From positions 1 to 36,891 of IMG/VR virus record IMGVR_UViG_3300025646_006475: a stretch of DNA of 36,891 bases, one strand, 5' to 3'. How positions within the stretch are numbered: position 1 is the stretch's first letter; every line of letters starts with the position of its first letter. A program made the position numbers and the translations under genes. The DNA is from a virus. Under the pieces are notes generated by a model. It searched no databases. It was given only the letters and a program-made list of their open reading frames with translations, and was not told the origin of the DNA. Below, piece after piece: positions 180-35,399 of this stretch.

Positions 180-557
180 ATGTATTCATTACTTAATTCA
201 AATTTAGTAGACAAAATTTTTAGTGGTCTAAACGAACCATCATGGCAAACATCAACTTACACTTATGGTGATAAATCTTATTTTCAAAGAACAACCGAAT
301 ACGGTGTTGAATTTGAAATGTTTGTACCAGGTCTCTCTAAAAAAGACGTTAAGGTTGAATTGGAAGATAACAGACTTTTCATTGAAGCGAAGTATTCATC
401 AGATTTGACATCATATGAAGTAAGTAAAACGTTCACTATTGGTGAACACATTGATACTGATAATATTGACGCGTCAGTTGAGAATGGTGTTTTGAAGTTG
501 ATTCTACCATTTAAGAAAAAAGAAGAAAAGAAAAAAAGTAGAATTGCTCTACTCTAA
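180..557 (+). CDS. Hsp20-type small heat shock protein
   Basis: A 125-aa protein with an alpha-crystallin/Hsp20 domain over most of its length. The family core is visible: a beta strand region with VPGLSKKDVKVELEDNRLFI at about residues 50-69 and the second signature ASVENGVLKLILPF near 98-111. The C-terminal tail is lysine-rich and ends RIALL, resembling the I-x-I/L tail motif used for oligomer contacts. Small heat shock proteins are ATP-independent holdases that keep unfolding proteins soluble, and hsp20 genes are well known in T4-like cyanophages. It is the first rightward gene after the regulatory region and has its own terminator, so it is probably transcribed alone. The start is an ATG with an A-rich, SD-less leader. 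Confidence 0.92.
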   Translation: MYSLLNSNLVDKIFSGLNEPSWQTSTYTYGDKSYFQRTTEYGVEFEMFVPGLSKKDVKVELEDNRLFIEAKYSSDLTSYEVSKTFTIGEHIDTDNIDASVENGVLKLILPFKKKEEKKKSRIALL

Positions 558-14208: not shown

Positions 14209-16017
14209 ATGGGAGCATTATTAGAATCAGGTCTAGTTGGTAACATCGGTCTTAAGCACTTGAAAGTTATCAAAGAAGACACAATCAACAAATGGGACAA
14301 ATTAGGATTCTTAGAGGGTCTTAAAGGTCACCTTAAAGAAAACGTAGCTCAATTATACGAGAACCAAGCGTCTCACTTAATTAACGAAGCTGCATCAACT
14401 ACAGACAGTGGTTCATTTGAAACTGTTGTTTTTCCAATTGTTAGAAGAGTATTCTCTAAACTTTTGTCTAACGACATCGTTTCTGTACAAGCAATGAATT
14501 TACCAATTGGTAAGTTATTCTACTTTGTACCTAAAATTCAAGGTTACACAGGTGGTACCGCTAATCAGTCAGGTCAACACTACGCACCTGTAGGTTCACC
14601 AGGAAACTACCCAGGTAATCCTGATGCTGGTTACATCGGTGATGGTTCATACGCTAAAAACCTTTACGATTTATTCTACGAAGGTAACGAAGCATCTTTG
14701 GACCCTCCAGGATTGTTTGACTACTCAAAAGGTAGATGGACAGCAGTAACTGCAACAACTAATACTGTTGTATGGAATGGTAGTAATTTAGATATCGCAG
14801 ACTATTCTGAAGATAACTACAGAAAAGTGTTGTTAAAAATGACAGGTTTCGCATCAGCAGGTGCTGGTAAACTTATCGGTCCTGATGGTCAGGAAATGGA
14901 TAGCGAAGCTTTCTTAAGCGATTTGAAAATTGTTCCAACAGTTGCAACATCAGGTCAAGCTGGTTGGGATTTAGGAACAGGAGCTCAGTTGTTCAGAGTA
15001 GTAACTCAGAAATACGGTAAAGGTATTGTTCAGTACGGTTCACAAGCACAAGCTGCATGGCCAGCTAATGGTGGTGGTGGATACTACGACAACATCTGTA
15101 ACGCTAACGGAGAAATCTACTTAGAAGTAGACCTTCAAACACCAGTTTGTATCTCATGTGGTGATTCATCATTAGATGGTTACACAGGTACAACATTCTC
15201 AGCTTCTTCAGCTAACAGTGCAGCGTTCATCGCGGTATACAGAAGATATGAAGAGTTAGAGTTTGAAGATAAAATCGGTGAAGTTTCTTTTGACCTTGAG
15301 TCAGTAACAGTTTCTGTTACAGAAAGAAAACTTAGAGCACAGTGGTCACCTGAATTAGCTCAGGACGTAGCTGCGTTCCATAACATTGACGCTGAGGCTG
15401 AATTGACAGCATTGTTGTCAGAGCAAATCGCAGCTGAGATTGACCGTGAAATCTTGAGAGACTTGAGAAAAGGTGCGGCTTGGACATTACGTTGGGATTA
15501 CAACGGATGGAAGAGATTAGGTTCTAACGCAGTTCCTTACACTCAGAAGGACTGGAACCAAACTCTTATCACTGCAATCAACCAAATTTCAGCACAAATC
15601 CACAAATCAACATTGAGAGGTGGAGCTAACTGGATTGTTGTATCTTCAGAGATAAGTGCAATCTTTGACGACTTGGAGTACTTCCACGTATCAAACGCTT
15701 CTCCAGAGCAAGACCAATACAACATGGGTATTGAAAGAGTTGGTACTTTGGCTGGTAGATATCAGGTTTATAGAGACCCTTACTTCCCACCAAACACAGT
15801 ATTGTTGGGTCACAAAGGTACGTCTTTACTTGACACTGGTTACATCTACGCACCGTATGTACCTCTTCAATTAACTCCAACAATGTATAATCCATTCAAC
15901 TTCACACCAATCAAGGGTATCATGACAAGATACGCTAAGAAGATGGTGAACAACCGTTTCTACGGTAAAATCACAGTTGATGGTGTTAGAACATTTGACT
16001 TAAACGAGTTGAGATAA
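14209..16017 (+). CDS. Major capsid protein (T4 gp23-like)
   Basis: A 602-aa HK97-fold capsid protein. Similarity to T4 gp23 shows in VQAMNLPIGKLFYFVPKIQG, in LRAQWSPELAQDVAAFHNID and AELTALLSEQIAAEIDREIL (compare IELAQDLRAVHGMDAD in T4), and in GRYQVYRDPYFPPNTVLLGH followed by YIYAPYVPL. T4 gp23 is cleaved after Glu65 in FLTE-A; here SHLINE-AAST suggests cleavage after Glu60. It is about 80 residues longer than T4 gp23, with extra sequence in the middle. Codons are markedly richer in C-ending forms (AAC, TTC, TAC, GAC) than in neighbouring genes, as expected for the most abundant virion protein. The leader is A-rich with no SD. Confidence 0.96.
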   Translation: MGALLESGLVGNIGLKHLKVIKEDTINKWDKLGFLEGLKGHLKENVAQLYENQASHLINEAASTTDSGSFETVVFPIVRRVFSKLLSNDIVSVQAMNLPIGKLFYFVPKIQGYTGGTANQSGQHYAPVGSPGNYPGNPDAGYIGDGSYAKNLYDLFYEGNEASLDPPGLFDYSKGRWTAVTATTNTVVWNGSNLDIADYSEDNYRKVLLKMTGFASAGAGKLIGPDGQEMDSEAFLSDLKIVPTVATSGQAGWDLGTGAQLFRVVTQKYGKGIVQYGSQAQAAWPANGGGGYYDNICNANGEIYLEVDLQTPVCISCGDSSLDGYTGTTFSASSANSAAFIAVYRRYEELEFEDKIGEVSFDLESVTVSVTERKLRAQWSPELAQDVAAFHNIDAEAELTALLSEQIAAEIDREILRDLRKGAAWTLRWDYNGWKRLGSNAVPYTQKDWNQTLITAINQISAQIHKSTLRGGANWIVVSSEISAIFDDLEYFHVSNASPEQDQYNMGIERVGTLAGRYQVYRDPYFPPNTVLLGHKGTSLLDTGYIYAPYVPLQLTPTMYNPFNFTPIKGIMTRYAKKMVNNRFYGKITVDGVRTFDLNELR

Positions 16018-16504: not shown

Positions 16505-16981
16505 ATGGATAATGACAAGAAATTAAAAGAAGACTTGGCGGTTTGGTTTGGTAAAAAGAAAAAACCAAAAGGTAGTAAACAACCTAAAGGTCCTTGGGTA
16601 GACATTTGTAGAAAGGATAAGGATGGTAAACATCCACCTTGTGGTAGAAGTGATGCTGATAAGGGGTCATATCCAAAATGTAGAGCTGCGGGTGTTGCGG
16701 GTAAAATGACTGATGCTGAGAAAAAAAGTGCTTGTCAACAAAAAAGAAGAGTTGAAAAAAAAGATACTCAAACGGGTAAAGGTCAAAAACCTAATTGGGT
16801 TTCACATAAGAAGAAAAAGAAAAATGAATCGGTTAGACGATTAATTACCGCCATTCTTAAAGAAGAAGTTACAAAAAGTAGAGTTATTTGTGATGAGTGT
16901 GATTGGTCTTGGAAATTATCTGAAGGTGGGAATGACCCTTATATTTGTCATAAGTGTGGTCATGATAACAAACCTTCGTAA
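16505..16981 (+). CDS. Zinc-ribbon protein with Cys-rich basic domain
   Basis: A 158-aa basic protein with two visible modules. Residues about 28-80 contain WVDICRKDKDGKHPPCGRSD and KGSYPKCR, a short Cys-containing pattern I have seen in other phage hypothetical proteins but cannot name with certainty. The C-terminus is a treble-clef or zinc-ribbon-like unit with Cys129, Cys132, Cys148 and Cys151 in CDEC-x15-CHKC. A small helix SVRRLITAILKEEV precedes it. Such ribbons bind nucleic acid or protein. The gene is the only rightward one in a leftward neighbourhood and overlaps the convergent mgsA-like gene by 22 bases. Confidence 0.75.
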   Translation: MDNDKKLKEDLAVWFGKKKKPKGSKQPKGPWVDICRKDKDGKHPPCGRSDADKGSYPKCRAAGVAGKMTDAEKKSACQQKRRVEKKDTQTGKGQKPNWVSHKKKKKNESVRRLITAILKEEVTKSRVICDECDWSWKLSEGGNDPYICHKCGHDNKPS

Positions 16982-17340
16982 TACCCAATAAGAATATCGG
17001 CACTTTTGTAATTGGTCGCCAACGGTACATTGTGAACATCACAAAGTCTTAACAACATTTGAACATCTGGTTCATGTGGGTGTTTATCTAAGGGGTCTCT
17101 AAAAAATATTACACCTTCCAATTCACCTTTTGTTACCATTGATGCGATTTCAGCATCACCACCCATTGGTCCACTATTAACCGTATCAACTTTGTCCACA
17201 CCAGCATTTTTAATCATTTTACCTGTGGTTCCTGTTGCAACAATATCAATATTTGGTAAGTTAAAGAATTTTAATTTTTTCATTACAAAGGCAACCATCT
17301 CAGCCTTTTTACCATCGTGAGCAATTAGTGCAAATTTCAT
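16960..17340 (-). CDS. mgsA: Methylglyoxal synthase-like protein
   Basis: A 126-aa protein matching methylglyoxal synthase across its length; E. coli MgsA is 152 aa. I chose the ATG at 17340 because the longer frame opens with a GTG inside a terminator and adds nine residues foreign to the family. Motifs: ALIAHDGKK (His8, Asp9, Lys12), ATGTTG at 35-40, SGPMGGD at 56-62 with the catalytic Asp62, FFRDPL, and PHEPDV with His89 and Asp92. These align with E. coli His19, Asp20, Lys23, Asp71, His98 and Asp101, so the active site looks intact. The enzyme converts dihydroxyacetone phosphate to methylglyoxal and phosphate. It is the last leftward gene, beyond a terminator, so it may have its own promoter. 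An MGS-like domain of PurH or CarB is less likely because SGPMGGD is present. Confidence 0.9.
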   Translation of the reverse strand: MKFALIAHDGKKAEMVAFVMKKLKFFNLPNIDIVATGTTGKMIKNAGVDKVDTVNSGPMGGDAEIASMVTKGELEGVIFFRDPLDKHPHEPDVQMLLRLCDVHNVPLATNYKSADILIGYYEGLLS

Positions 17341-17352
17341 ATGACAAATATA

Positions 17353-17380
17353 ATAAAAAAATCCCACAAAAGTGGGATTT
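17353..17380 (-). terminator. Leftward terminator between the Cys-rich gene and mgsA
   Basis: On the minus strand, AAATCCCAC and GTGGGATTT form a perfect 9-bp stem around TTTT, followed by a T-run. It lies 26 bases downstream of the 164-aa gene and 12 bases upstream of the mgsA start codon. Confidence 0.9.
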
Positions 17381-23473: not shown

Positions 23474-24217
23474 TTAATCGTATACACTATTTTGTATGAA
23501 AAAGTATAGTTTTTTAAACCTTTTCATTGAGGTTCTAATTTCTTTGGTAGACATATTTGTCATTTCTCTGAGAGATAATAAAATCACATTTTTATTGAAT
23601 TTATTATTATCAGTACCTAAAAATATCTTCTTATAGTTCTCAAACAAATCAATTAAAGATAATCCTAATTTTCTTTCGTTATCACTTAGGTTTTCATTTT
23701 CAATATAATCCTTTAATTCTGAAATGAATTTTTTAATAACGACATCCGCCTCAATCTGTTCATTTTCTAAATAATAAACCAAATCAGGTCTATTTTCTAA
23801 ACTTTGTGATATATCTTCATATGATACTTTTCTATTAATATCTTTTTGGTCTTTTATAATTTGACCCATAAGATAGTTTTTACAAATTGTACCAAAATAA
23901 GAATAAGCCTTCTTGTTTTTATCAGGCCTAAACTTATCTATTTTTGTCATTAAAAATGAGTGTGTATCAGTATGAATATCGGTAAAGTCCATATCTTTAC
24001 GATATAGCTTGTACCTTCGGATGATTGATGAAATCATCTTATCCAAGGGATGTCTTAGGTACTCATTGTAAATCTTATTTTTTTCCTCAAAAGTAGTTGC
24101 TTTAAGATACATTAAAACAGCCTGTTCCTCTCGTATGTCAAAATAGTTTGTATTAGTACTTTTTCTCCCTCGTTTTTTCTTGATTGTTGTTGTAACCGTT
24201 GTTAAACCCGTCAACAT
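23474..24217 (-). CDS. Late-gene RNA polymerase sigma factor (T4 gp55-like)
   Basis: A 247-aa protein, longer than T4 gp55 (185 aa). A sigma-2-like core lies at about 45-130: TDIHTDTHSFLMTKIDKFRP followed by KKAYSYFGTICKNYLMGQII, the [AK]-x-[SA]-YF-x-T-I pattern common to gp55 relatives. The N-terminus is basic (TIKKKRGRKS). The C-terminus MSTKEIRTSMKRFKKLYFFI is a possible sigma-4-like or clamp-contacting helix. gp55 family members recognise a minimal -10 box and lack strong -35 binding. The start overlaps the previous stop by one base (TAATG), so translation is coupled to the glycosyltransferase gene. Confidence 0.85.
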   Translation of the reverse strand: MLTGLTTVTTTIKKKRGRKSTNTNYFDIREEQAVLMYLKATTFEEKNKIYNEYLRHPLDKMISSIIRRYKLYRKDMDFTDIHTDTHSFLMTKIDKFRPDKNKKAYSYFGTICKNYLMGQIIKDQKDINRKVSYEDISQSLENRPDLVYYLENEQIEADVVIKKFISELKDYIENENLSDNERKLGLSLIDLFENYKKIFLGTDNNKFNKNVILLSLREMTNMSTKEIRTSMKRFKKLYFFIQNSVYD

Positions 24218-25023
24218 TAAACGACATTTTCTTCATACTTTATCCACCTGTCCTCAGAGAAAAAGTGTTCTTTTTTTGCAGATTCAATCCAAAATTTAAC
24301 TTCACTATCTGTTAGTTTTTCAGAACCATTTTTGTAATTCCAAAATATTGAACCTTCTCTAAGATTAGTGTGTTTATATCCAATTCTTGGTATTGTCATA
24401 ATCTTAAATGAGTGATAAGTCATTCTTAACAAGAATTCATAAACAAATGTTAATTTAAAACTTTCTTTGAACATTCCACACTCAATAAGTTTTTCTCTAT
24501 TTGCCACCATACCAGCACTTTGGAAATTTTGATAGTCCAACAATGTGTCGTTTGTCAACATACCAATTTCCTGAGTAAAATTAGCTGCGAAAGTAGCTTC
24601 GTTTGTAAATCCTGCAAAAGTACCTTTACTATCAACATCAATTACAATTGGTAAAAACGCATCAACGTCATCGTAAACGTCAATATACCTTTTTACATTT
24701 TTAAACCAAATAGACGAATATTCATCATCAAATTCTAATAAGGATACCCATTTAGTTGTCGCTTCTTGGATTCCAAGATTAACTTGTGATGCATAACTTG
24801 GTGTATTTGTGAACTCAATTTTTCTAACATTTAAGTCTCCAAAATCATAAGAGTTTAATGCGTCAACCAATTGTTCTTCAGGTGTATGAATGATTATCAA
24901 TTCCTTGAAACCCATTTCTTGTTCTTTACAAGATTTAATTGACTTGTCAAAAAACTCATCAAAATCTCTAACTACCGCAGATTTAATCGGTAGAATTACT
25001 GTCAAGTCTAAAATATTTTCCAT
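24217..25023 (-). CDS. Family 2-like (GT-A) glycosyltransferase
   Basis: A 268-aa protein with a GT-A nucleotide-sugar fold: LTVILPIKSAV at 7-17, a central Rossmann-like region, and an acidic metal/nucleotide motif EFDDE at 97-101 in SLLEFDDEYS. FAGFTNEATF and a late MTIPRIGYKHTNLREGS are compatible with acceptor-binding loops. It transfers a sugar from a nucleotide donor; donor and acceptor cannot be told. It is sandwiched between a GT-B glycosyltransferase (one base apart) and the gp55-like sigma gene, with overlaps that imply one transcript. Confidence 0.8.
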   Translation of the reverse strand: MENILDLTVILPIKSAVVRDFDEFFDKSIKSCKEQEMGFKELIIIHTPEEQLVDALNSYDFGDLNVRKIEFTNTPSYASQVNLGIQEATTKWVSLLEFDDEYSSIWFKNVKRYIDVYDDVDAFLPIVIDVDSKGTFAGFTNEATFAANFTQEIGMLTNDTLLDYQNFQSAGMVANREKLIECGMFKESFKLTFVYEFLLRMTYHSFKIMTIPRIGYKHTNLREGSIFWNYKNGSEKLTDSEVKFWIESAKKEHFFSEDRWIKYEENVV

Positions 25024-25024
25024 A

Positions 25025-26089
25025 TTAATTTTCTACGTTTTCTTCAATTTTATTAATTTGTTCTTCAAATGACATTTTTCGTCTTTGAATTAAGTTAGTA
25101 AATAAGTCTTCAACTTTAGAGTTGAATTTTTCAATATCACTAAATGTTTCAGCTGTATTCTCACCTTCAGTATAAATTTCAGGTAGGATATTATCTTCTA
25201 ACCAATTTTGAATAAAGTCAGCAACAATATCAACAATTTGAACTGGGTTCTGAACCCATACACCATTAGTTTCTGTCATCCAATCTGGTGTTAAGTTTGG
25301 TATTTGTCCTACAACAGGAACTCCTGATTTCATACACTCAAGAGGGAAAGTACCAAATGATGATGTTGGGTCAATCCAAACACCTAAAAATGCGTCATTC
25401 ATTGAATGGGCAAATTCTTGTTGTGAAAGACCTCTCATATCTTTAAAGGTTATCCATCTATATTGTGGGTATTTCAAGTAGAATTGCTTAATCATGTTAA
25501 TACCATCTCTTTGCTCCCTTGTATGAACACACACAATTGGTTTTGGTGGGTATTTTTGTTTAATAAATTCACTTGAAATTGTAGGTTCAATTACGTCAAT
25601 AGATACGTTTCTCATTGTCTGAGAAATAAACTCTTTGTTCTTTTCAGTAGTTGTAATACATTTCAAAAATCCGTATTGAGACCAACTTGAACCAGGTGTT
25701 AATGTTTCTAACATATGGTCATAAGCTTGACAAAGTACAATTTTACCACATGGTAAATTCTTAACTTGGTCCATAACGAATCCAAAAATTTCAGGAATAA
25801 CTAAGAAATCTTCAGGTGCGATTTGTAAATTACCACCCTCAATACACATATGGTTTAGACCACCATACTCAGGACCTAACCAAGTAGTAACTGGTGTATA
25901 ATCAGGTTTTTCATGTAACATAGTTGGTTGATAACCTAACTGTTTTAATGACAATGCCATGTCATAAATGTACTTCAAAGAGGCTTTTGCATTACCTTTT
26001 GTGTCTTGTACAAAAAAGTAAATGTTCATTTTCTTTTCATCTATATTTGAAATAGATTGTTTAATTTTGTCTAATAAGTTTTGTTCCAT
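25025..26089 (-). CDS. GT-B glycosyltransferase (GT4-like)
   Basis: A 354-aa protein with two Rossmann-like halves. The C-terminal donor-binding signature is clear: SSFGTFPLECMKSGVPVVGQ at 243-262, with the E-x7-E-like acidic position in PLECM. The N-terminal half holds FFVQDTKGNAKASLKYIYDM, an acceptor-side element of GT4 members. It probably adds a hexose to phage glycan, protein or DNA. It lies four bases after the 87-aa gene and directly before another glycosyltransferase. Length is typical for the family. Confidence 0.82.
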   Translation of the reverse strand: MEQNLLDKIKQSISNIDEKKMNIYFFVQDTKGNAKASLKYIYDMALSLKQLGYQPTMLHEKPDYTPVTTWLGPEYGGLNHMCIEGGNLQIAPEDFLVIPEIFGFVMDQVKNLPCGKIVLCQAYDHMLETLTPGSSWSQYGFLKCITTTEKNKEFISQTMRNVSIDVIEPTISSEFIKQKYPPKPIVCVHTREQRDGINMIKQFYLKYPQYRWITFKDMRGLSQQEFAHSMNDAFLGVWIDPTSSFGTFPLECMKSGVPVVGQIPNLTPDWMTETNGVWVQNPVQIVDIVADFIQNWLEDNILPEIYTEGENTAETFSDIEKFNSKVEDLFTNLIQRRKMSFEEQINKIEENVEN

Positions 26090-26092
26090 TTT

Positions 26093-26356
26093 TTATAGGT
26101 GTTGTAATAGATTATGTCTTAACAATGTGTTAAATGCGATTTTAAATGGTAGAGATACACCATTAGAGGCTTTACTACCCAATAACTCATCACTTTCATC
26201 TTGTTCTGTCATTAGGACCTCAATCATAGTTTTAATTAATTCATATTTTGCAATAGAGATGTGTTGTTCAGTTCCTCCTGACGCGGGATTAAGACCGATA
26301 TAACTATCAATCTTATCAACATCTAAGTAATAATTTTCACCAAATATTTTAAACAT
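26093..26356 (-). CDS. Hypothetical protein, 87 aa
   Basis: Starts MFKIFGENYYLDVDKIDSYI and contains GLNPASGGTEQHISIAKYEL followed by a helix. The combination of a short N-terminal beta hairpin and a helix is a generic small phage fold. It overlaps the upstream HAD-like gene by eight bases and is followed after three bases by the glycosyltransferase gene. No function is recognised. Confidence 0.68.
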   Translation of the reverse strand: MFKIFGENYYLDVDKIDSYIGLNPASGGTEQHISIAKYELIKTMIEVLMTEQDESDELLGSKASNGVSLPFKIAFNTLLRHNLLQHL

Positions 26357-26954
26357 TTTTTTCTTTTATAATTTTCATTAAAGGTTCTAATTCTTTAATG
26401 TTATTTATGGTATTTTCCATTTCAATAGAATTATTATATTCCGTATTGTATTTTATAATGTATTTATCTGTTTTATTCTGTAATAATAGTTCAGGATTTG
26501 CGGTAAGTAAAACATCAAATTCATCCCAAATACTATCTTCAGTTAATTTATTAAAAAAAATAATTTTGTCAATCTGACATCCAAATTTAGAAACAAAGAA
26601 TAATGTCGCGGGTTTGGACTTTCCAACTTCATTAGATATTAATGAAAATTTAAAATCTTCTTTTAGTGAATGATAAATTTCATCTAAATCTTGAAATGAT
26701 GACATTTCGGTTGAGGGAGAATGTCCAAAAATTTGCATTACAAAATCTTCATACATAAATGTGTAAAAATCGTCTTCGGTTGGAAACTTAAAATGATTTA
26801 TCAAGTTTGTACTCGTAACTGGTAAATCCATCTCGTATTTAAACTCAGGATTCTCAATCATGTCTTGTTCATCAACCAGGTATTTTTCATATACTTGTTT
26901 GATTTTTTCATTTGTATTTCTCAATACACCATTTATGTCAATCGCAATTCTCAT
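26349..26954 (-). CDS. HAD-superfamily-like protein with altered motif I
   Basis: A 201-aa protein beginning RIAIDINGVLRNT, a HAD motif I in which the second aspartate (the acid/base residue) is Asn7. Later elements fit the fold: FKFSLISNE as motif II, GKSKPATLFF as the motif III lysine, and FDVLLTANPELL in the motif IV position. The change in the catalytic DxD means hydrolysis may be weak or the protein may be a binding rather than an enzymatic member. It overlaps the upstream PhoH gene by four bases (ATGA). Confidence 0.7.
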   Translation of the reverse strand: MRIAIDINGVLRNTNEKIKQVYEKYLVDEQDMIENPEFKYEMDLPVTSTNLINHFKFPTEDDFYTFMYEDFVMQIFGHSPSTEMSSFQDLDEIYHSLKEDFKFSLISNEVGKSKPATLFFVSKFGCQIDKIIFFNKLTEDSIWDEFDVLLTANPELLLQNKTDKYIIKYNTEYNNSIEMENTINNIKELEPLMKIIKEKNV

Positions 26955-27682
26955 TCTTCGTATTTCTTCAAAATTTTAGATATGATAGGATTTCTAACAA
27001 TGTCGTTTTCACCAAATTCAAAAACACCAATATCGTCCATGTTTTTAAATTTTGAAATTGCATCCCACAATCCTGAATGTGTTTTATCTTTATATCTGTC
27101 AGTTTGTTCCAAGTCACCTGAAATAAAGAATTTACTGTTAAAACCAATACGAGTTAAAAGTAGTTTCATTTGATTTGGTGTACTGTTTTGAGCCTCTTCA
27201 AAAATTAAAATGGTGTTGTCAATATTCCAACCTCTAATGTAAGCCAATGCTTGAACCTCAATAAAATCAAGTTGAATTAACTTTTCACGGTTTTCTTTCC
27301 CAATCAATTTATTCAAAAGATAATAGGACGGACTAATGTAGGGGTCCAACTTTTCTTCTAATGCACCAGGTAAAGAACCTAATTTTTCTTCAGCTTCAAC
27401 CGCAGGTCTAACAATCATTAACTTTTCATATGAATTTTTTGGGTCAGCAAGTAAATCTACCGCAGCTTTCATTGCGATATATGATTTACCAACACCCGCA
27501 GGTCCTGTACAAATTGTTATCTGATTTTCATTTAATAAATTGTAATATAGTTTTTGGTTTTCAGTTAAAAATTTTTCTTTTGTTTTTTTTGTGATTATTT
27601 GAGTTATTAAATCTTTTTTAGACAGATTTTTACTCACATTATCTTGTGTCTGAGCACTTACAGATTTTGGTTTTCTATTCAT
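26951..27682 (-). CDS. phoH: PhoH-family ATPase
   Basis: A 243-aa P-loop ATPase. Walker A is GPAGVGKS at 60-67. PhoH-specific segments follow: MIVRPAVEAEEKLGSLPG at about 89-106, the Walker B-like ILIFEEAQN at 158-166 with PNQMKLLLTRIG after it, and SGDLEQTD at 188-195. PhoH is common in T4-like and marine phages; its biochemical role is unclear, with phosphate-stress and RNA metabolism both proposed. The N-terminal ~40 residues are a basic extension. It lies in a leftward operon nine bases after the cupin gene. Confidence 0.92.
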   Translation of the reverse strand: MNRKPKSVSAQTQDNVSKNLSKKDLITQIITKKTKEKFLTENQKLYYNLLNENQITICTGPAGVGKSYIAMKAAVDLLADPKNSYEKLMIVRPAVEAEEKLGSLPGALEEKLDPYISPSYYLLNKLIGKENREKLIQLDFIEVQALAYIRGWNIDNTILIFEEAQNSTPNQMKLLLTRIGFNSKFFISGDLEQTDRYKDKTHSGLWDAISKFKNMDDIGVFEFGENDIVRNPIISKILKKYEE

Positions 27683-27691
27683 ATATTTTTT

Positions 27692-28087
27692 TTATTTAAG
27701 TATATCACCTTTCCAAACTCTATAACTGTCGGAGTCAAAGTGTGTGGTTGAAACTTCAAACACTTCACCGTCAGTCAAAGCTTCTAATTGATGTGGTTGT
27801 CCTGGATATTGTCTAACTGAATCCCCTTCTACTAATTTTACTTCATTTACCTCGGCAGTTTCGGTATCAATCCATCTATATATAAATTCGCCACTTTGTA
27901 CATACCAAGTTTCATCTTTAATCATATGGTAGTGCATGGAGAATTTACATCCTTTTTTAAAGACTAAAATTTTACCACAATAAAGTTCGTTATTTTCAAA
28001 GATTATTTCATGTCCCCATCCTTTGGGTATGTTGCATTCCTTACACTCCTTGGCGTTGAATACAATTGGTTTTTCGTTGTGTTTCAT
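27692..28087 (-). CDS. Cupin-domain protein (mannose-6-phosphate isomerase-like)
   Basis: A 131-aa single-domain cupin. Metal-ligand positions are visible: His52, His54 and Glu59 in MHYHMIKDETWYV, and His99 in YPGQPHQLEAL. WGHEIIFENNELYCGKIL at the start and the E-x-H pattern resemble the C-terminal domain of type II mannose-6-phosphate isomerases and nucleotide-sugar epimerase-like cupins. In this context it probably acts on a sugar phosphate or nucleotide sugar for the glycosyltransferases. Two Cys (15 and 18, CKEC) near the start are unusual. Confidence 0.8.
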   Translation of the reverse strand: MKHNEKPIVFNAKECKECNIPKGWGHEIIFENNELYCGKILVFKKGCKFSMHYHMIKDETWYVQSGEFIYRWIDTETAEVNEVKLVEGDSVRQYPGQPHQLEALTDGEVFEVSTTHFDSDSYRVWKGDILK

Positions 28088-28126
28088 TTTTAAAAAAGTA
28101 ATAAATTTTAACTAAAAATACACAAT

Positions 28127-29233
28127 TTAAAAATTAATTAAATACCCATCAGGTTTCAAACCCTTTTTAAAGAATTTAACTTTGTTCGGATAACTATCAG
28201 TAAATGATTTAGACATTGATTTAATCACTGATTCAGACTCAATAATATTCAATGAATACCCCGACTCTAAAAACTTATAACACAAGTCTAATGAAACCGA
28301 ATTAATAATAACATTTGAATTTTTCATATAACTCAAACCGTCAATAATAAATGGAATATCCTTTGTTGGGTTTTCATTTGTGTATTTTATAAAGAGTTCG
28401 GATATTCTGTTTTGATTTATTTTTTCTGTGGTTAAAAACAATTCTGAATCAATTTCTTGTTGTTCAAACATGTTGGCAATAAGTAAATTTATATTACTTA
28501 GTATTGGACCGTTAAATGGTTTTCCATCAGATATGAATGGGTTATTTTTTCTAAACTCTTTATTTAAAGAATCTGATGACATTGTGAATTCATGTGATAA
28601 TGAAAACTTTTCAAAAATATCTTTAAAACCATTAATAAATGTTTTTTGTACGGTACTAAACCCATCAATCATTATTTTAGTTAATTCAGACGCGGTATAA
28701 CCCATCTGTTGGATGTTGATTGGTTTTTTGATAACATTTGTTAAAATGTTGGTAACCATTGAGGTTATTTCGTGATTTGAATTACCCAATAAAAAGAAGG
28801 GGGTATTAATAATTTCATCTCCAATATTTGTATATTCTACAAATGTTGGTAGATATGCAACTTGTACTCCATATGCGGATAATCTTTCTTGAATTAACTT
28901 TGTTGTGAAGGGGTTTACAGTTGAAACAATGATTAGTGTTTTACCATTAATACTTATTTCACTTTTAAAACATTCAATAAAATCATCAACAATATTACTT
29001 ATTTGAAGAGTGTTAAATTCTTTATTATTTGTAATTGGGGTATCAACGCAAACAAAAATAACATCACTATCCTCAATTATTTTTTTATTGTCATTAGTGA
29101 TTGTTAATTCTGATGATAATTTTCTAACAATACTTTCATTCTTGTCTGAAAAACTCACCTGATATTCCTTTGAAAGTAATTTACCAAAAGAATATCCGAA
29201 TTTACCAGTTCCGATAATACCTATATTATACAT
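28127..29233 (-). CDS. Degenerate UDP-glucose/GDP-mannose dehydrogenase-like protein
   Basis: A 368-aa protein. The N-terminal NAD-binding Rossmann unit is intact: GIIGTGKFGYSFG (dinucleotide motif at about 5-17), FVCVDTP at 60-66 and STVNPFTT. The family's catalytic lysine appears as Lys186 in TASELTKIMID. In the region where active enzymes have G-x-G-G-x-C-x-P-K-D, this protein reads GKPFNGPILSN at 238-248, so the nucleophilic cysteine and the Asp are missing, and the glutamates of PEFLREG are replaced (PTFVEYT). A two-step oxidation is therefore unlikely. It may bind NAD and a sugar nucleotide or catalyse another reaction. It overlaps the upstream glycosyltransferase stop by one base. Confidence 0.78.
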   Translation of the reverse strand: MYNIGIIGTGKFGYSFGKLLSKEYQVSFSDKNESIVRKLSSELTITNDNKKIIEDSDVIFVCVDTPITNNKEFNTLQISNIVDDFIECFKSEISINGKTLIIVSTVNPFTTKLIQERLSAYGVQVAYLPTFVEYTNIGDEIINTPFFLLGNSNHEITSMVTNILTNVIKKPINIQQMGYTASELTKIMIDGFSTVQKTFINGFKDIFEKFSLSHEFTMSSDSLNKEFRKNNPFISDGKPFNGPILSNINLLIANMFEQQEIDSELFLTTEKINQNRISELFIKYTNENPTKDIPFIIDGLSYMKNSNVIINSVSLDLCYKFLESGYSLNIIESESVIKSMSKSFTDSYPNKVKFFKKGLKPDGYLINF

Positions 29234-30738
29234 TAAATGAGTGTCAATTTATCTTGATAATGTCTCATATTTTCATTTATGAATGGATACAACCTCATAA
29301 AAAAATCCTCATTGGTTTTTTTATTTTTTTCTTCTGAGTTATTCCTTGTCACAGATTCATAGTGATATGCAACACAATTCCCACACAAGTAATTCTTTTT
29401 TCTAAGTTTAAGACATTCCAAATTTAATTCAACATCTTCAAAACATTCAATATATGATTCATTATATCCACCAATGGCGTTAAATAGAGATTTTTCAATC
29501 ATTAGTAATGCTGCGGTGTTACCAATAACTTCTTTAGTTTCTTTACTAAATTTATGGTAAGATTTAAAACAATCGTGTGATATATGAATCGCATTTCTTT
29601 TTTGTTCGTGATAAATAACTACACCACTATGTTGTACTGTATTATCTTCAAAATGAAGCCTGACACCGACAGTCCCAACATTACTAAAACTTCTATATGT
29701 TTTCATCATTCCTGATAATATATCATTTAGTATCTTAATGTCATTATTACAAAAAACTAAAAATCTATAGTCATTTGAAATATGATTATTAACAATATCA
29801 TTATTAATTTTTGCAAAATTATAATAATCATATTCTATTAGAGTTATATTACTTTTAGTGTTAAAGTAATTCTTCATTACAAGTAATTCCTCATTTGACG
29901 AACCTGTATCACCGATAAAAAAGTGAAATAAGTCAGAATCACAATGCTCATACCAACTTTCTAAACAATTTATTAAAACTTCAACATTACCTTTTGTTGG
30001 TATTATAATTGCCACTTTATCTTTAGATTGTAGATGTTTAATTGGTTTTACAAAAACTGATGAGGGTTTCAAATCAATTGGTAATACTGTTGAATATTTT
30101 TCTACAAATTTTTCTTTTGTTGTAAAAAACTCATCATTTGGTTGTCCAACTGAAAAGTGTGTAATATCAAATGAAAATGTTACCCCAATTTTTACATTAT
30201 CTAAAAAATTTGGTATACAAAATCCGTGGTCATAAAAATGGAACATACCTAAAGATTCATCAAATGAATGTTTGATTTTTGTCTTATCAAATGACATGAA
30301 AACACCATCAATAGATATTACTTCAGTAATTCCATCTTCACTAACAGAATACTTACTTAAAAATTTTTTTTCACCTGGTGGTTGGTGGTAAACTTCACCA
30401 ACCATTGTTTGGTTTAATTTTTCCCAATAAATTCCTGTTTCAGAAAAATAACAAGTACCAGCTTTTCCAATAATACCATACTCAGGATTTTCACTAAAAT
30501 CTTTTAAGATTTTTTTACCCCAACCTTTACTCAAAATAACATCATTGTGAACACATACGACAATATTATACTTACTTTGTGATAGACCTTCATTGTAAAC
30601 TTTAGACAATGATTTATCACCAAAGTTTTCAAAACCTAAGATTTCATATTCTTTAACACCTATGGTGTCCTTCAAATGTTTTTCAAAGTTTAAATTGTAG
30701 TTTTTGTCTTTGTTGCTTGAGTAAATTACGGTAATCAT
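29233..30738 (-). CDS. Two-domain glycosyltransferase, 501 aa
   Basis: The protein has two GT-A-like halves. The N-terminal ~220 residues carry IVVCVHNDVILSKGW (acidic His-Asn-Asp at 64-66) and FHFYDHGFCIPNFL, similar to a family 2 subgroup that ends with an acidic/aromatic acceptor motif. The second domain starts VAIIIPTKGNVEVLINCLES at about 242-261, with CNNDI at 330-334, and ends with YIECFEDVELNLECLKLRK, a canonical GT2 acceptor-site motif. Tandem domains often make two different linkages of one glycan chain. It overlaps the upstream HAD gene by four bases. Confidence 0.82.
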   Translation of the reverse strand: MITVIYSSNKDKNYNLNFEKHLKDTIGVKEYEILGFENFGDKSLSKVYNEGLSQSKYNIVVCVHNDVILSKGWGKKILKDFSENPEYGIIGKAGTCYFSETGIYWEKLNQTMVGEVYHQPPGEKKFLSKYSVSEDGITEVISIDGVFMSFDKTKIKHSFDESLGMFHFYDHGFCIPNFLDNVKIGVTFSFDITHFSVGQPNDEFFTTKEKFVEKYSTVLPIDLKPSSVFVKPIKHLQSKDKVAIIIPTKGNVEVLINCLESWYEHCDSDLFHFFIGDTGSSNEELLVMKNYFNTKSNITLIEYDYYNFAKINNDIVNNHISNDYRFLVFCNNDIKILNDILSGMMKTYRSFSNVGTVGVRLHFEDNTVQHSGVVIYHEQKRNAIHISHDCFKSYHKFSKETKEVIGNTAALLMIEKSLFNAIGGYNESYIECFEDVELNLECLKLRKKNYLCGNCVAYHYESVTRNNSEEKNKKTNEDFFMRLYPFINENMRHYQDKLTLI

Positions 30739-31121
30739 TTTTCAAATACTTGTATGTTTGCACTGATAGTCGTTAGTGGTGACCATTTACCATCATATCT
30801 TGTTGCTCTAACGATATGATTATCAATCCAGTGGTAATTTCCACCACGAGGTTTATTAAATAATATTCCATGATACTTAAACCCATGTTTGTCTAACCAT
30901 TGTTTGGTTATTACTTCGTGTTCATTAGTTCTTGATGTAAAGAACGTGATAATATGTCCTTCATCATACCAATAGTTAATAATATCAACTGAACCTTCAA
31001 ATGGTAGACAAGTCTTCATTCTTTCAGGTTGTTCATTTGGAACATCATCTGTTATTGTTCCATCAATATCAATTAAATAATTCTTGACCCCTTCGGGTAA
31101 TGTTGGGCTCACTGTATTCAT
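30735..31121 (-). CDS. Small HAD-superfamily phosphatase
   Basis: A 128-aa HAD-like hydrolase with canonical motif I LIDIDGTITDD (nucleophile Asp18 and acid Asp20), motif II FFTSRT, and a motif IV-like WIDNHIV preceded by NKPRGGNY. No cap domain is visible, so it resembles the short capless phosphatases that accompany capsule and sugar-nucleotide gene clusters. The substrate is probably a small phosphorylated sugar or nucleotide. It overlaps the dUTPase gene upstream (ATGA) and the two-domain glycosyltransferase downstream. Confidence 0.75.
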   Translation of the reverse strand: MNTVSPTLPEGVKNYLIDIDGTITDDVPNEQPERMKTCLPFEGSVDIINYWYDEGHIITFFTSRTNEHEVITKQWLDKHGFKYHGILFNKPRGGNYHWIDNHIVRATRYDGKWSPLTTISANIQVFEK

Positions 31122-31705
31122 ATTCCTGTTGAACCAAATCCGTTTGAACTTCTATCTTTTTCGTTTATTTCGTTTACCTCCCCAAGGTTTACCCATTTTC
31201 CTGCGTAAACTGGACATAAAACACCTTGTGCGACTTTTTGACCTTTATTAACTGTGACTTCAAAATTATTCATGTTCATCAAAATAACTTTAACCTCACC
31301 AGTATATCCTTGGTCTACAGTACCAGGACTATTTAATACCATAAGTCCTTGTTTAATCGCTAACCCACTTTTGGTTCTAACTTGAATCTCAGTTCCGTCA
31401 GGAATGTCAAACACCAAACCTGTTGGTACCAACTTCCTTTCAAATGGTAAAAATACAATTTCTTCAACACTGTACAAGTCAAAACCTGAATCAGTTTCGT
31501 AATTGTATGTCGGAGACACAGCATCAGGATGAATCTTAGTGAAGTTTAATTTCATTCTATGGTCAGTCGCCATTTCATCTTCAAGTTGTTTCATATCAAT
31601 ACCATCAATAGTCTCATTGGTCTCATTTTCAAAAGCCTCTTGTAAGTCTTTTAATAATAAATCCAATTCTTTTTCTAAATTTTTTAAATCTTTATCGTTA
31701 GACAT
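31118..31705 (-). CDS. dut: dUTPase with N-terminal extension
   Basis: A 195-aa trimeric-type dUTPase with all five motifs: DSGFDLYS (72-79), PTGLVFDIP, RTKSGLA (110-116), PGTVDQGYTGEV (128-139, catalytic Asp131), KGQKVAQGVLCPV, and the arm DRSSNGFGSTG (184-194) that closes over the nucleotide. It converts dUTP to dUMP and diphosphate, keeping uracil out of DNA and feeding thymidylate synthesis. About 50 residues of acidic, coiled-coil-like sequence precede the usual N-terminus. It overlaps the exonuclease gene by eight bases. Confidence 0.95.
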   Translation of the reverse strand: MSNDKDLKNLEKELDLLLKDLQEAFENETNETIDGIDMKQLEDEMATDHRMKLNFTKIHPDAVSPTYNYETDSGFDLYSVEEIVFLPFERKLVPTGLVFDIPDGTEIQVRTKSGLAIKQGLMVLNSPGTVDQGYTGEVKVILMNMNNFEVTVNKGQKVAQGVLCPVYAGKWVNLGEVNEINEKDRSSNGFGSTGI

Positions 31706-32408
31706 ATTCTTTTAATTCTTTAAGTTTTTTAATCACATCGTATAAAACACGAACGTCTTGTTCGCAATATTTGTCAATCTTTTCCAAATTATTGTTAAAC
31801 CAAAAATTCTCGTGGACTTTTGACCCGTCCATATCATCAGACTTTGATGATTCAATACCCAAAACACCACACATTAAGTCCAATGTTGCAATACTACCAA
31901 AACTACCGTATTGCCATAACTCTCTTGTGTCAAGAGCTTTAACCTCCCAAGGTTTTGTATCATGACCTGGCAAAATACGAGGTGGTTTCATATCGTTTAC
32001 AATCATACGTTTTGCCAAATATGGAATATCAAATCCTTTTACGTTGTGACCACACAACCAGTATTGCAATTCACCACATTTAATTAACGTCTTACGGACT
32101 TTCTTCAATAAGTCATACTCATCATGACCTGAAAAGATTTCAGTCTTTAAATTGTTGTTTTTGTCGGTCACACCTAATACTACTGAAACAATCTTACCAA
32201 ATTCAGGTAGTAGTGCGGCACGACTAACAAACAAGTCTGACGTTTCCATGTGAGCGTCTTCAGGATAACGTTTCTTAATCCAAGAAACATAATGTTCAAA
32301 TAATCGGGCAAGATTTGGTCTATTGTTGACCATAGTTTCCCAATCCTTTTCAATACCGACAGTTTCAATGTCAATAAATAAAATCTTACTTAATGGTAGT
32401 TCTATCAT
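31698..32408 (-). CDS. 3'-5' exonuclease, DnaQ/PolB-exo type
   Basis: A 236-aa DEDDy exonuclease. Exo I is FIDIET (Asp13, Glu15), Exo II is CGHNVKGFDIPYL with Asp127, and Exo III is YCEQD with Tyr214 and Asp218. The pattern and size match the group related to the DNA polymerase B proofreading domain (PF10108-like). Possible roles are proofreading in trans, end processing or host DNA degradation. It is coupled to the glycosyltransferase gene upstream (four-base overlap) and the dUTPase gene downstream, placing DNA metabolism genes inside a sugar gene cluster. Confidence 0.85.
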   Translation of the reverse strand: MIELPLSKILFIDIETVGIEKDWETMVNNRPNLARLFEHYVSWIKKRYPEDAHMETSDLFVSRAALLPEFGKIVSVVLGVTDKNNNLKTEIFSGHDEYDLLKKVRKTLIKCGELQYWLCGHNVKGFDIPYLAKRMIVNDMKPPRILPGHDTKPWEVKALDTRELWQYGSFGSIATLDLMCGVLGIESSKSDDMDGSKVHENFWFNNNLEKIDKYCEQDVRVLYDVIKKLKELKEYV

Positions 32409-33616
32409 ACAATTGATTTATAAAATTCAGCTCTTTGTTTTGTTACGTTATTCAAATCATACTTGTCTTTAACAGTCTCGTACAATCTTTCACCCAAGTC
32501 TTTAACCAAGTTTGGATTATCAACCAATCTTTTAACATACTTGTACCAATCTTTGTGATTTTTTCTTTCCTCAATCAACACCGCATTACCATCAACAAAG
32601 TTAACACCATCAAATGTATGTTTAAGGTCAATTGTGTAAGGACCTAAATCAGAGGCAACAATTGCCTTTTTGTAGAATCCTGCCTCAATAACCTTAAGTT
32701 GTGACTTCATTCTATTGAAGATATGGTTTTTAATCGGTGCCAAAGATACATCAAATTTTGCATAATTCTTAGCGTATGATGAAATTGGTTGTGTCCAAAT
32801 TCTTTGATAAAATTCATCATTATATTGATTACCAATATCTTGAGTATACTTCAAAAGTTCTTTATGATACTCAGGACTTATCAACTTATATCTATTTGTG
32901 AAAATCTCTTCATATTTTGCCCAAATAGTCTCATGTGGTTCCATCTTACGTCTTGTTTGTTCACCTGTCGCCTTATTAATTTCTGTAACAGTACCACGTG
33001 TGTCAAAACCACATAAAAACGCCTGAGCCTTGTCTTTTATATCAGTCATTCTATTAAACAATCCATCAAGAATAGTCAAATCATGATAGTGTGACGAACC
33101 ACCTAACCAACCAACTCTAACCTTATCAGAAGGTTCGGTAACCGCTTTAAATTGATGTTCATCAGGATTAATAGCATTTGGAAAAACAACCACATTTTTA
33201 TTTAACTTACTAATTTCAGATGCAAAAATATCAGTAGTTGTTGTAACATATTTTGCGGTACGAATATTATTCATAATTCTTGTATGAACTTTATTCTCAA
33301 CAACAATATGATGAATTGGGTGTTCAATACCTGGCAACCAATAATCATCAATATCCATTACGGTGATAATACCTTCGTTATTTAGTTTTTCAACCAACTC
33401 ACGACCTTTATCATAATCACCTGACATTGTTCTATGAAAATGAACAATCTGATAATCTTTATAAAAATTTATATTATCCAAAGGTGGATTGTATTCAACA
33501 TCCACATGAAATTCATCACCAAAGTTTTTCTGTAAGTTAACGTGGGGGTCTAATGACCTAAATTTACCAACACCTGTTCTATCCGATGGTACAACTAATA
33601 CTCTAATTTTTGACAT
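32405..33616 (-). CDS. GT-B glycosyltransferase, 403 aa
   Basis: A GT4-like protein starting MSKIRVLVVPSDRTGVGKFR. I chose the ATG at 33616 over a TTG two codons upstream, because that TTG lies in the arm of an inverted repeat. The middle has VRVGWLGGSSHYHDL, and the C-terminal donor site has QLKVIEAGFYKKAIVASDLG with the acidic position in KVIEAG. A region around 210-230 (TRGTVTEINKATGEQTRRKM) is an unusual insertion. It is the first gene after the hairpin at 33619-33649 and the fourth glycosyltransferase of the cluster. Confidence 0.82.
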   Translation of the reverse strand: MSKIRVLVVPSDRTGVGKFRSLDPHVNLQKNFGDEFHVDVEYNPPLDNINFYKDYQIVHFHRTMSGDYDKGRELVEKLNNEGIITVMDIDDYWLPGIEHPIHHIVVENKVHTRIMNNIRTAKYVTTTTDIFASEISKLNKNVVVFPNAINPDEHQFKAVTEPSDKVRVGWLGGSSHYHDLTILDGLFNRMTDIKDKAQAFLCGFDTRGTVTEINKATGEQTRRKMEPHETIWAKYEEIFTNRYKLISPEYHKELLKYTQDIGNQYNDEFYQRIWTQPISSYAKNYAKFDVSLAPIKNHIFNRMKSQLKVIEAGFYKKAIVASDLGPYTIDLKHTFDGVNFVDGNAVLIEERKNHKDWYKYVKRLVDNPNLVKDLGERLYETVKDKYDLNNVTKQRAEFYKSIV

Positions 33617-34931: not shown

Positions 34932-35399
34932 TTATAATTTTTGCATAATTTCATTTATCCTTTTAAGACTTTCGGTTACCGCTAAGTCATATTTGGCTAA
35001 GGTATTTTTCTTTGATTTAGATGGACTGATATTTAAATCTGTTGATGGTTTTAAGTCTTGTTTAACACTTTTAACCATACCAGTATCATCTTTATGTCTT
35101 TGGGTACTACTGATTGATTGTCTTGCACCTGATAAGGTACTATCAACAAATTGTTTCATTTTGTTTTCACCATTTAAGATAAATGGTGCGTCAGTATTCT
35201 GTCCTTTAAAATTGTCAAAAAAGTTTTTAATTCTTTTTAATTCTCTATAACCTAAATTGTCCGCACTTTGTAAACGTAAATTACGTTTGTATCCATCCAT
35301 TGATGAATCAGCGTTCTTCACCTTCATAAAACACACTTTCATGTGTTTTCTCATATCTTCGGGAAAATCCCATCTTTTATTATACAACTCACTGTTCAT
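34932..35399 (-). CDS. Hypothetical protein, 155 aa
   Basis: A basic helical protein (MNSELYNKRWDFPEDMRKHM at the start) with KVCFMKVKNADSSMDGYKRN and LGYRELKRIKNFFDNFKGQN in the middle, a Ser/Lys-rich disordered stretch, and a C-terminal helix ESLKRINEIMQKL. It overlaps the upstream gene by 11 bases and is followed two bases later by the 97-aa gene. No family is recognised; the helix-linker-helix form suggests a structural or assembly role. Confidence 0.7.
   Translation of the reverse strand: MNSELYNKRWDFPEDMRKHMKVCFMKVKNADSSMDGYKRNLRLQSADNLGYRELKRIKNFFDNFKGQNTDAPFILNGENKMKQFVDSTLSGARQSISSTQRHKDDTGMVKSVKQDLKPSTDLNISPSKSKKNTLAKYDLAVTESLKRINEIMQKL

Follow-up and report, generated by a model that had tools for sequence, protein, structure and literature searches.

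A phage gene array with four conserved glycosyltransferases and an exchangeable sugar-gene island that may glycosylate virion protein

What a phage might do with four glycosyltransferases of its own is the question raised by the virus record IMGVR_UViG_3300025646_006475. The record of 36,891 bases, probably a fragment, was analyzed over its full length and is called the window here. Its plus strand holds a T4-like head module (terminase, portal, protease and major capsid protein), while a long array runs from 36237 to 16960 on the minus strand. Positions 24217–33616 form a single leftward array, with overlaps of 1–8 bp or very short gaps between the genes, that encodes four glycosyltransferases, PhoH, dUTPase, an exonuclease, a cupin and HAD-like proteins. 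The original prediction had proposed that these transferases build a chain of several sugars, possibly attached to virion protein, for protection against host receptors or restriction. The reading favored here, with moderate confidence, is that the array makes a phage-encoded, membrane-free cytoplasmic glycan, with a conserved core and a variable decoration, that is placed on virion protein in a chlorovirus-like manner. The four transferases and the two genes bordering a variable island are:

24217..25023, minus strand: GTA1, core GT-A glycosyltransferase, GT2-like (PF00535, E 6e-8)
25025..26089, minus strand: GTB2, core GT-B glycosyltransferase, GT4-like (GT-B fold by AlphaFold, predicted local distance difference test (pLDDT) 89.5)
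26951..27682, minus strand: PhoH-like ATPase, bordering the variable island on one side (PF02562, E 8e-63)
29233..30738, minus strand: GTAA, tandem GT-A glycosyltransferase (PF13712, E 3e-25, and PF00535)
31118..31705, minus strand: dUTPase, bordering the variable island on the other side (PF00692, E 2e-24)
32405..33616, minus strand: GTB1, core GT-B glycosyltransferase, GT4-like, ATG start at 33616 (PHROG 7162, E 9e-46)

The gene set originally proposed for 24217–33616 was recovered in full, each gene in its place within one leftward, mostly overlapping array. The GT-A, GT-B, tandem GT-A and GT-B assignments were confirmed by Pfam or PHROG matches or by the AlphaFold fold, and those of PhoH, dUTPase, exonuclease and cupin by the family matches listed here and below. 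Of the proposed HAD proteins, 30735–31121 was weakly supported (PHROG 1238) and 26349–26954 was not, having no family match and a degenerate motif. Two genes had been overlooked, one nucleotide-sugar-dehydrogenase-like (28127–29233) and one sigma-factor-like (23474–24217). PhoH, dUTPase and the exonuclease appear to be ordinary phage core genes within the array.

In GTA1, D99–E101 of the EFDDE motif was invariant among 69 sequences, and in both GTA1 and GTAA the acidic motifs expected of a metal site are kept. The GTB1 model (pLDDT 86.3) matches the GT4 fold. Mean column identity for GTB1 was 76%. GTB2 was nearly invisible to Pfam (sub-threshold match only); its model best matched AmGGT (8xsg; Foldseek E 2e-13, VIA Z 31.1, root-mean-square deviation 3.1 over 319 residues) at 14% identity, the next other entry having a Z of 25.3. 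ApAgt, a relative of AmGGT, extends glucose on cytoplasmic N-glucosylated adhesins. There was no GT41 (NGT-type) match among the Pfam matches of the four transferases, although no search was aimed at GT41.

Scanning IMG/VR with GTAA, GTB1 and GTB2 yielded 214 related loci (L002–L215), mostly 51–66% identical, in records reaching 340 kb, against which all window genes were run by tblastn. Gene order was fixed, from the genes at 35389–33667 through GTB1, exonuclease, dUTPase and an island with GTAA to PhoH, the HAD-like gene, the gene at 26093, GTB2, GTA1, the sigma-like gene and the tail genes. All 103 loci showing both dUTPase and PhoH had them in the same order within 14 kb and, because order and strand were kept throughout, the arrangement is not due to chance. 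A few loci found by GTAA alone (L033–L035, L042, and L048) had no other array gene. Among 20 large related records, which include near-duplicates (L121/L123) and are therefore not a count of independent lineages, GTB1 occurred in all 20 (mostly 58–65% identity), while GTA1 (42–69%) and GTB2, both scoring strongly, and the N-terminal GTAA domain were each present in 19; the one record lacking them starts about 2.4 kb from GTB1. The C-terminal domain of GTAA was unmatched by the same search in 9 of the 19, so that this protein combines a conserved N-terminal with an exchangeable C-terminal glycosyltransferase domain.

The stretch that separates dUTPase from PhoH is hypervariable: this island measures 2.3–12.6 kb and was found in 73 non-redundant versions. 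Together these hold 566 open reading frames (ORFs), window included, in 165 protein clusters; 562 of the 566 are on the array strand, and essentially every island encodes a GTAA-type protein. Pfam matches of representatives included transferases (GT2, FkbM, TylF and other methyltransferases, hexapeptide and GNAT acetyltransferases, and sulfotransferases) and sugar enzymes (GDP-mannose dehydratase, DegT aminotransferase, epimerases, and UDP-GlcNAc 2-epimerase), along with UDP-galactopyranose mutase, RmlD and WbqC. The G+C content of the islands was 27.9%, compared with 30.4% in the flanking core genes, and was lower than that of the flanks in 65 of 71. Island content was also seen to be exchanged between close relatives. 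L153 and L154 are 99.3% identical along 2.0 kb and 98.1% along 15.3 kb, while the intervening 2.6 and 3.8 kb hold unrelated genes, and the same swap pattern was found for L012/L025, L027/L051, and L124/L127. At the island border, the dUTPase gene of a few relatives (L056:7216-8734, L069:12312-12621) seemed by eye to be interrupted in an intein- or homing endonuclease-like manner, its short pieces forming separate clusters.

The island of the window itself is small, comprising GTAA and three further genes:

27692..28087, minus strand: cupin, sugar-enzyme type (PF07883, E 3e-8; PHROG 7851, E 2e-38)
28127..29233, minus strand: nucleotide-sugar dehydrogenase-like (PHROG 9148, E 2e-35; TIGR03026, E 6e-27, below cut-off)
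30735..31121, minus strand: predicted HAD-IIIA-like phosphatase (PHROG 1238, E 7e-16; TIGR01662, E 0.004, below cut-off)

The cupin is 51% identical to that of cyanophage S-CAM1, which sits with heptose and other sugar genes beside tail-fiber and neck genes, and the HAD protein is 30% identical to a neighbor of the S-CAM1 cupin. In the few relatives that carry this HAD gene, identity was about 73%. When the dehydrogenase-like protein was aligned to 3gg2, the GGSCFP motif was found to be replaced, and the product appears to lack the catalytic Cys.

Membrane helices were predicted by hydropathy, at a Kyte–Doolittle (KD) threshold of 1.8 and a looser one of 1.6, with SfV gtrA, gtrB and gtrV as the positive control, which scored 2, 2, and 5 helices. 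None of the 566 island proteins had a membrane helix at 1.8, except for one Rossmann N-terminus, and at 1.6 there were 15 with one helix each. No multi-helix protein was found in the 73 islands, and hence nothing there corresponded to the gtr-type membrane set of GtrA, GtrB and a membrane-embedded glycosyltransferase.

In the favored reading, the array would be a phage-borne, membrane-free glycan assembly line. Within the cytoplasm of the host, GTA1, GTB2, the N-terminal domain of GTAA and GTB1 would assemble a conserved inner oligosaccharide, to which the exchangeable island would contribute donor sugars, outer glycosyltransferases and capping methyl-, acetyl- or sulfotransferases, and differences among islands would then give close relatives different outer sugars. 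Most likely, a capsid or tail protein of the virion would be the acceptor, and selection would favor an altered chemistry of the particle surface, through adsorption, stability or decoy. A multi-sugar chain on virion protein, as originally proposed, is thus favored indirectly, because the core transferases are conserved, the island is variable and soluble, proteins for membrane export or ligation were not found in it, and the related S-CAM1 genes neighbor tail-fiber genes. What is observed are the genes, their order, the conservation of the core, the variability and swapping of the island and its lack of predicted membrane proteins. That the enzymes are active and work in sequence, and the benefit, are inferred, as is the protein acceptor, which is proposed by elimination and from three leads, namely the AmGGT/ApAgt fold, the S-CAM1 context and the continuation of the array into tail genes.

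One candidate acceptor is encoded on the opposite strand:

14209..16017, plus strand: major capsid protein, candidate acceptor only (PHROG 138, E 3e-65)

The best 80 of at least 600 matches to this protein in viral contigs were 76–82% identical, with variation mostly in residues 101–330, for which conservation was 0.69 compared with 0.95 and 0.93 on the two sides (80 sequences). Residues 101–330 are a possible acceptor region. Conserved N-X-S/T sequons, considered as pointers to the acceptor, sit in the conserved fold outside the variable part and were discarded. A bolder proposal is held more tentatively, and we consider it possible but somewhat doubtful: that the locus is an analogue of a serotype locus, a fully soluble, self-encoded pathway whose glycan would cover the virion. 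This glycan would have a core common to all members and an outer part swapped by recombination between nearly identical phages, and would be both begun and lengthened on protein in the cytoplasm along an Agt-like route.

Several points weigh against glycosylation of virion protein. The records are metagenomic and possibly partial, so membrane or base-modifying genes could sit elsewhere, assembly chimeras might imitate single swap cases, and the searched phage records held no isolate of the lineage. The acceptors of AmGGT are oligosaccharides, not glycopeptides, and a likeness of fold reveals no acceptor. Soluble glycosyltransferases may also use lipid-linked precursors at the inner membrane together with a host flippase and ligase, and similar genes in pelagimyophages were read by their authors as modifying the host O-chain (PMC7029224).

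These last two points belong to the strongest alternative, which we regard as unlikely: that the transferases and the island alter host lipopolysaccharide core, O-chain or capsule precursors and so block superinfection. The island enzymes resemble those of O-antigen loci (WbqC, GDP-mannose dehydratase, DegT, RmlD, and FkbM), variable islands resemble serotype loci, and the pelagimyophage paper prefers such a reading for its transferases (PMC7029224). However, the 73 islands held no flippase, polymerase, polyprenyl-phosphate transferase or ligase-like membrane protein, although the SfV gtr proteins scored positive, and the four core transferases recur in many phages whose hosts, with their surface polymers, presumably differ, a pattern that a host-specific acceptor would hardly explain. 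Host-surface pathways of the gtr or Wzx/Wzy kind require membrane proteins. The absence of membrane helices from the islands therefore disfavors a self-contained surface pathway, but is compatible with a variant in which soluble, peripheral transferases work on the inner leaflet and the flippase and ligase of the host complete the job.

It is quite improbable that the island is a passive cargo slot, in which sugar genes were gathered by recombination with no common product and the core transferases have a small-molecule or storage role. The diversity of the islands (165 clusters in 73 versions) and their lower G+C content are consistent with such a slot, and GT4 relatives include the small-molecule glycosyltransferases BshA and MshA. 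The content is nevertheless functionally coherent, consisting of glycosyltransferases, sugar-nucleotide enzymes and sugar-modifying transferases in nearly always one orientation, and a GTAA-type protein recurs in essentially every island.

Glycosylation of virion protein also has to be set against modification of DNA, on which restriction sites bear indirectly. GATC was absent from the window, where 108–113 copies were expected by two methods; TCGA occurred twice (40–76 expected) and GCGC once (14 expected). Among 88 related loci of at least 15 kb, GATC was absent from 45, while 35 held more than half of the expectation, and no copy was found in 120 and 100 kb of sampled 20-kb stretches of two large records. 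No non-palindromic tetramer was so depleted as GATC in 18,531 tests, and GACGTC occurred 5 times in 2.15 Mb, against 64 expected. For comparison, T7 holds 6 of 141 expected GATC sites and T4, itself depleted, 125 of 334 (37%); the DNA of T7 is unmodified and that of T4 glucosylated. Long exposure of the phage DNA to restriction is the simplest reading that this site loss suggests, and therefore the glycosyltransferases would not protect the DNA. A phage nuclease with GATC specificity could be another cause, from which the same conclusion of unprotected DNA would follow. The DNA methyltransferase families PF02086 and PF01555 were considered as an explanation, but did not track with the loss of GATC.

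Enzymes of base modification were likewise sought. Ten PF00303 enzymes, eight from array-bearing records and two from records of other lineages (all of which may be incomplete), keep the Asn and canonical motifs of thymidylate synthase and are not of the dCMP-hydroxymethylase type, and for the one compared with the PDB only thymidylate synthases were among the matches listed. None of the glycosyltransferases matched the T4 DNA glucosyltransferase models PF09198 and PF11440 up to E 0.1, and T4 AGT and BGT were not among the fold matches listed for them, which is no proof of absence. Searches with Tet_JBP and HMUDK gave no match, but their control was silent too and they were not counted. The Phapecoctavirus Mt1B1_P17 (NC_052662 45046-48190, L221) has four tandem glycosyltransferases, at two places of which the genes are distantly GTB1-like, and shares nothing else with the window. 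The Vequintavirinae and their relatives, including phAPEC8-like phages, were described in the BASEL paper as exceptionally susceptible to restriction, which, together with the tandem transferases of Mt1B1_P17, is in line with such enzymes not protecting DNA.

Although T4 encodes two DNA glucosyltransferases, the array is shared with dUTPase, exonuclease and PhoH, and some large records have a PF00303 enzyme, hypermodification of DNA, in which the transferases would glycosylate a hydroxymethylated base as in T4 and island variants would swap the sugar against modification-dependent nucleases, is very improbable given that the PF00303 enzymes examined are of thymidylate-synthase type, PF09198 and PF11440 are unmatched, and GATC is lost from the window, about half of the relatives and the sampled large records while T4 retains 37%. 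The restriction-protection branch of the original prediction is disfavored on these grounds, together with the avoidance of TCGA and GCGC.

As to the lineage, no match in phage records was obtained by megablast with 22.9 kb of the window. By tblastn against the same records, none was found for GTB2 or GTA1, and only half-length matches in unannotated fragments for GTAA. The closest terminases there are only about 26–30% identical, so the searched phage collection seems to hold no close isolate. A GTB1 relative (36%) was found in the 735-kb phage LR756501, but with no other array gene within 41 kb. Contigs of bacterial genomes gave pattern matches, yet no relative of GTB1 or GTB2, and thus no clue to the host. 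A recent study described 25 “moraphages”, large aquatic phages of 200–307 kb, among whose core genes are four glycosyltransferase orthogroups along with dUTPase, PhoH, an exonuclease and a sigma factor; predicted hosts are mostly Bacteroidota, and some carry Hsp20 (Perez-Hernandez et al., 2025; PMC12619734). Four core glycosyltransferases occur here with the same dUTPase, PhoH, sigma factor and exonuclease, and the window looks like part of a moraphage or of a sister lineage, on the basis of shared gene content rather than alignment. An Hsp20-like small heat-shock protein was recognized by eye from its translation at 180–557 (plus strand) of the window.

The remaining genes of the array are:

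23474..24217, minus strand: sigma-factor-like gene, same operon, directly downstream (Sigma70_r2, E 0.011, below cut-off)
26093..26356, minus strand: small conserved protein, encoded between GTB2 and the HAD-like gene and detected in 133 of 215 loci (no Pfam match)
26349..26954, minus strand: HAD-like conserved protein (no Pfam or NCBIfam match)
31698..32408, minus strand: 3′-5′ exonuclease, PolB-exo2 type (PF10108, E 1e-10)

Median identity in relatives was 73% for PhoH and 68% for the sigma-factor-like gene. The HAD-like protein at 26349–26954 has the motif D/E-x-N-G-V instead of DxDxT/V (86 sequences), with Asn replacing the second catalytic Asp, and is probably not an active phosphatase. 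A methylglyoxal synthase gene at 16960–17367 (minus strand; NF003559, E 8e-45) had no relative in the related loci.

If the array glycosylates virion protein, an exchange of gene cassettes could change adsorption, particle stability and recognition while the capsid protein, itself very conserved, stays as it is, and the core transferases would gain a concrete role that the moraphage paper, which considers that DNA, the host or the virion may be targeted and defers variable islands to later studies, had left open (PMC12619734). The restriction-site counts indicate in addition that phage glycosyltransferases need not imply protection of DNA.

Comparison with known systems places the locus among several relatives in logic. 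Moraphages are likewise aquatic, with T4-like structural genes and the same core set. The four-glycosyltransferase core is therefore already published, whereas the array, the dUTPase–PhoH island, its swapping and restriction-site data do not appear in the text of that paper, and the swappable island and the restriction-site evidence are what is new here (PMC12619734). The “lipopolysaccharide” clusters of cyanophages and pelagimyophages also combine variable glycosyltransferases and sugar enzymes in T4-like aquatic phages, S-CAM1 sharing a homologous cupin and HAD protein with the window, but lie in tail-fiber or other regions and not in the dUTPase–PhoH slot of a four-glycosyltransferase array (PMC3037559, PMC7029224). 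T4 glucosylation shares phage glycosyltransferases and a T4-like virion module with the window lineage, in which, unlike T4, no match to a T4-type DNA glucosyltransferase and no dCMP hydroxymethylase was found among the enzymes examined and restriction sites are strongly avoided. Any likeness to the NGT–Agt system of Actinobacillus would lie in the AmGGT-like fold of GTB2, AmGGT and ApAgt themselves differing in acceptor. In mycobacteriophages, which have different hosts, subunits of the capsid and tail tube are glycosylated by phage glycosyltransferases (Freeman et al., 2023, as cited in PMC12619734). Judged by gene content, the capsid glycosylation of chloroviruses would be the nearest parallel in logic. 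PBCV-1 is likewise a large DNA virus with its own glycosyltransferases and glycan machinery, and the core glycan is common to all chloroviruses while outer sugars are specific to each member (PMC7826918). It differs in being a virus of eukaryotic algae whose Vp54 N-glycans are proven by structure, the window lineage being known from genes alone. Soluble glycosyltransferases, sugar-nucleotide enzymes and a conserved core with variable decoration are nonetheless all found among the genes here, and the favored reading, if true, would carry the chlorovirus principle over to bacterial phages that are common in freshwater.

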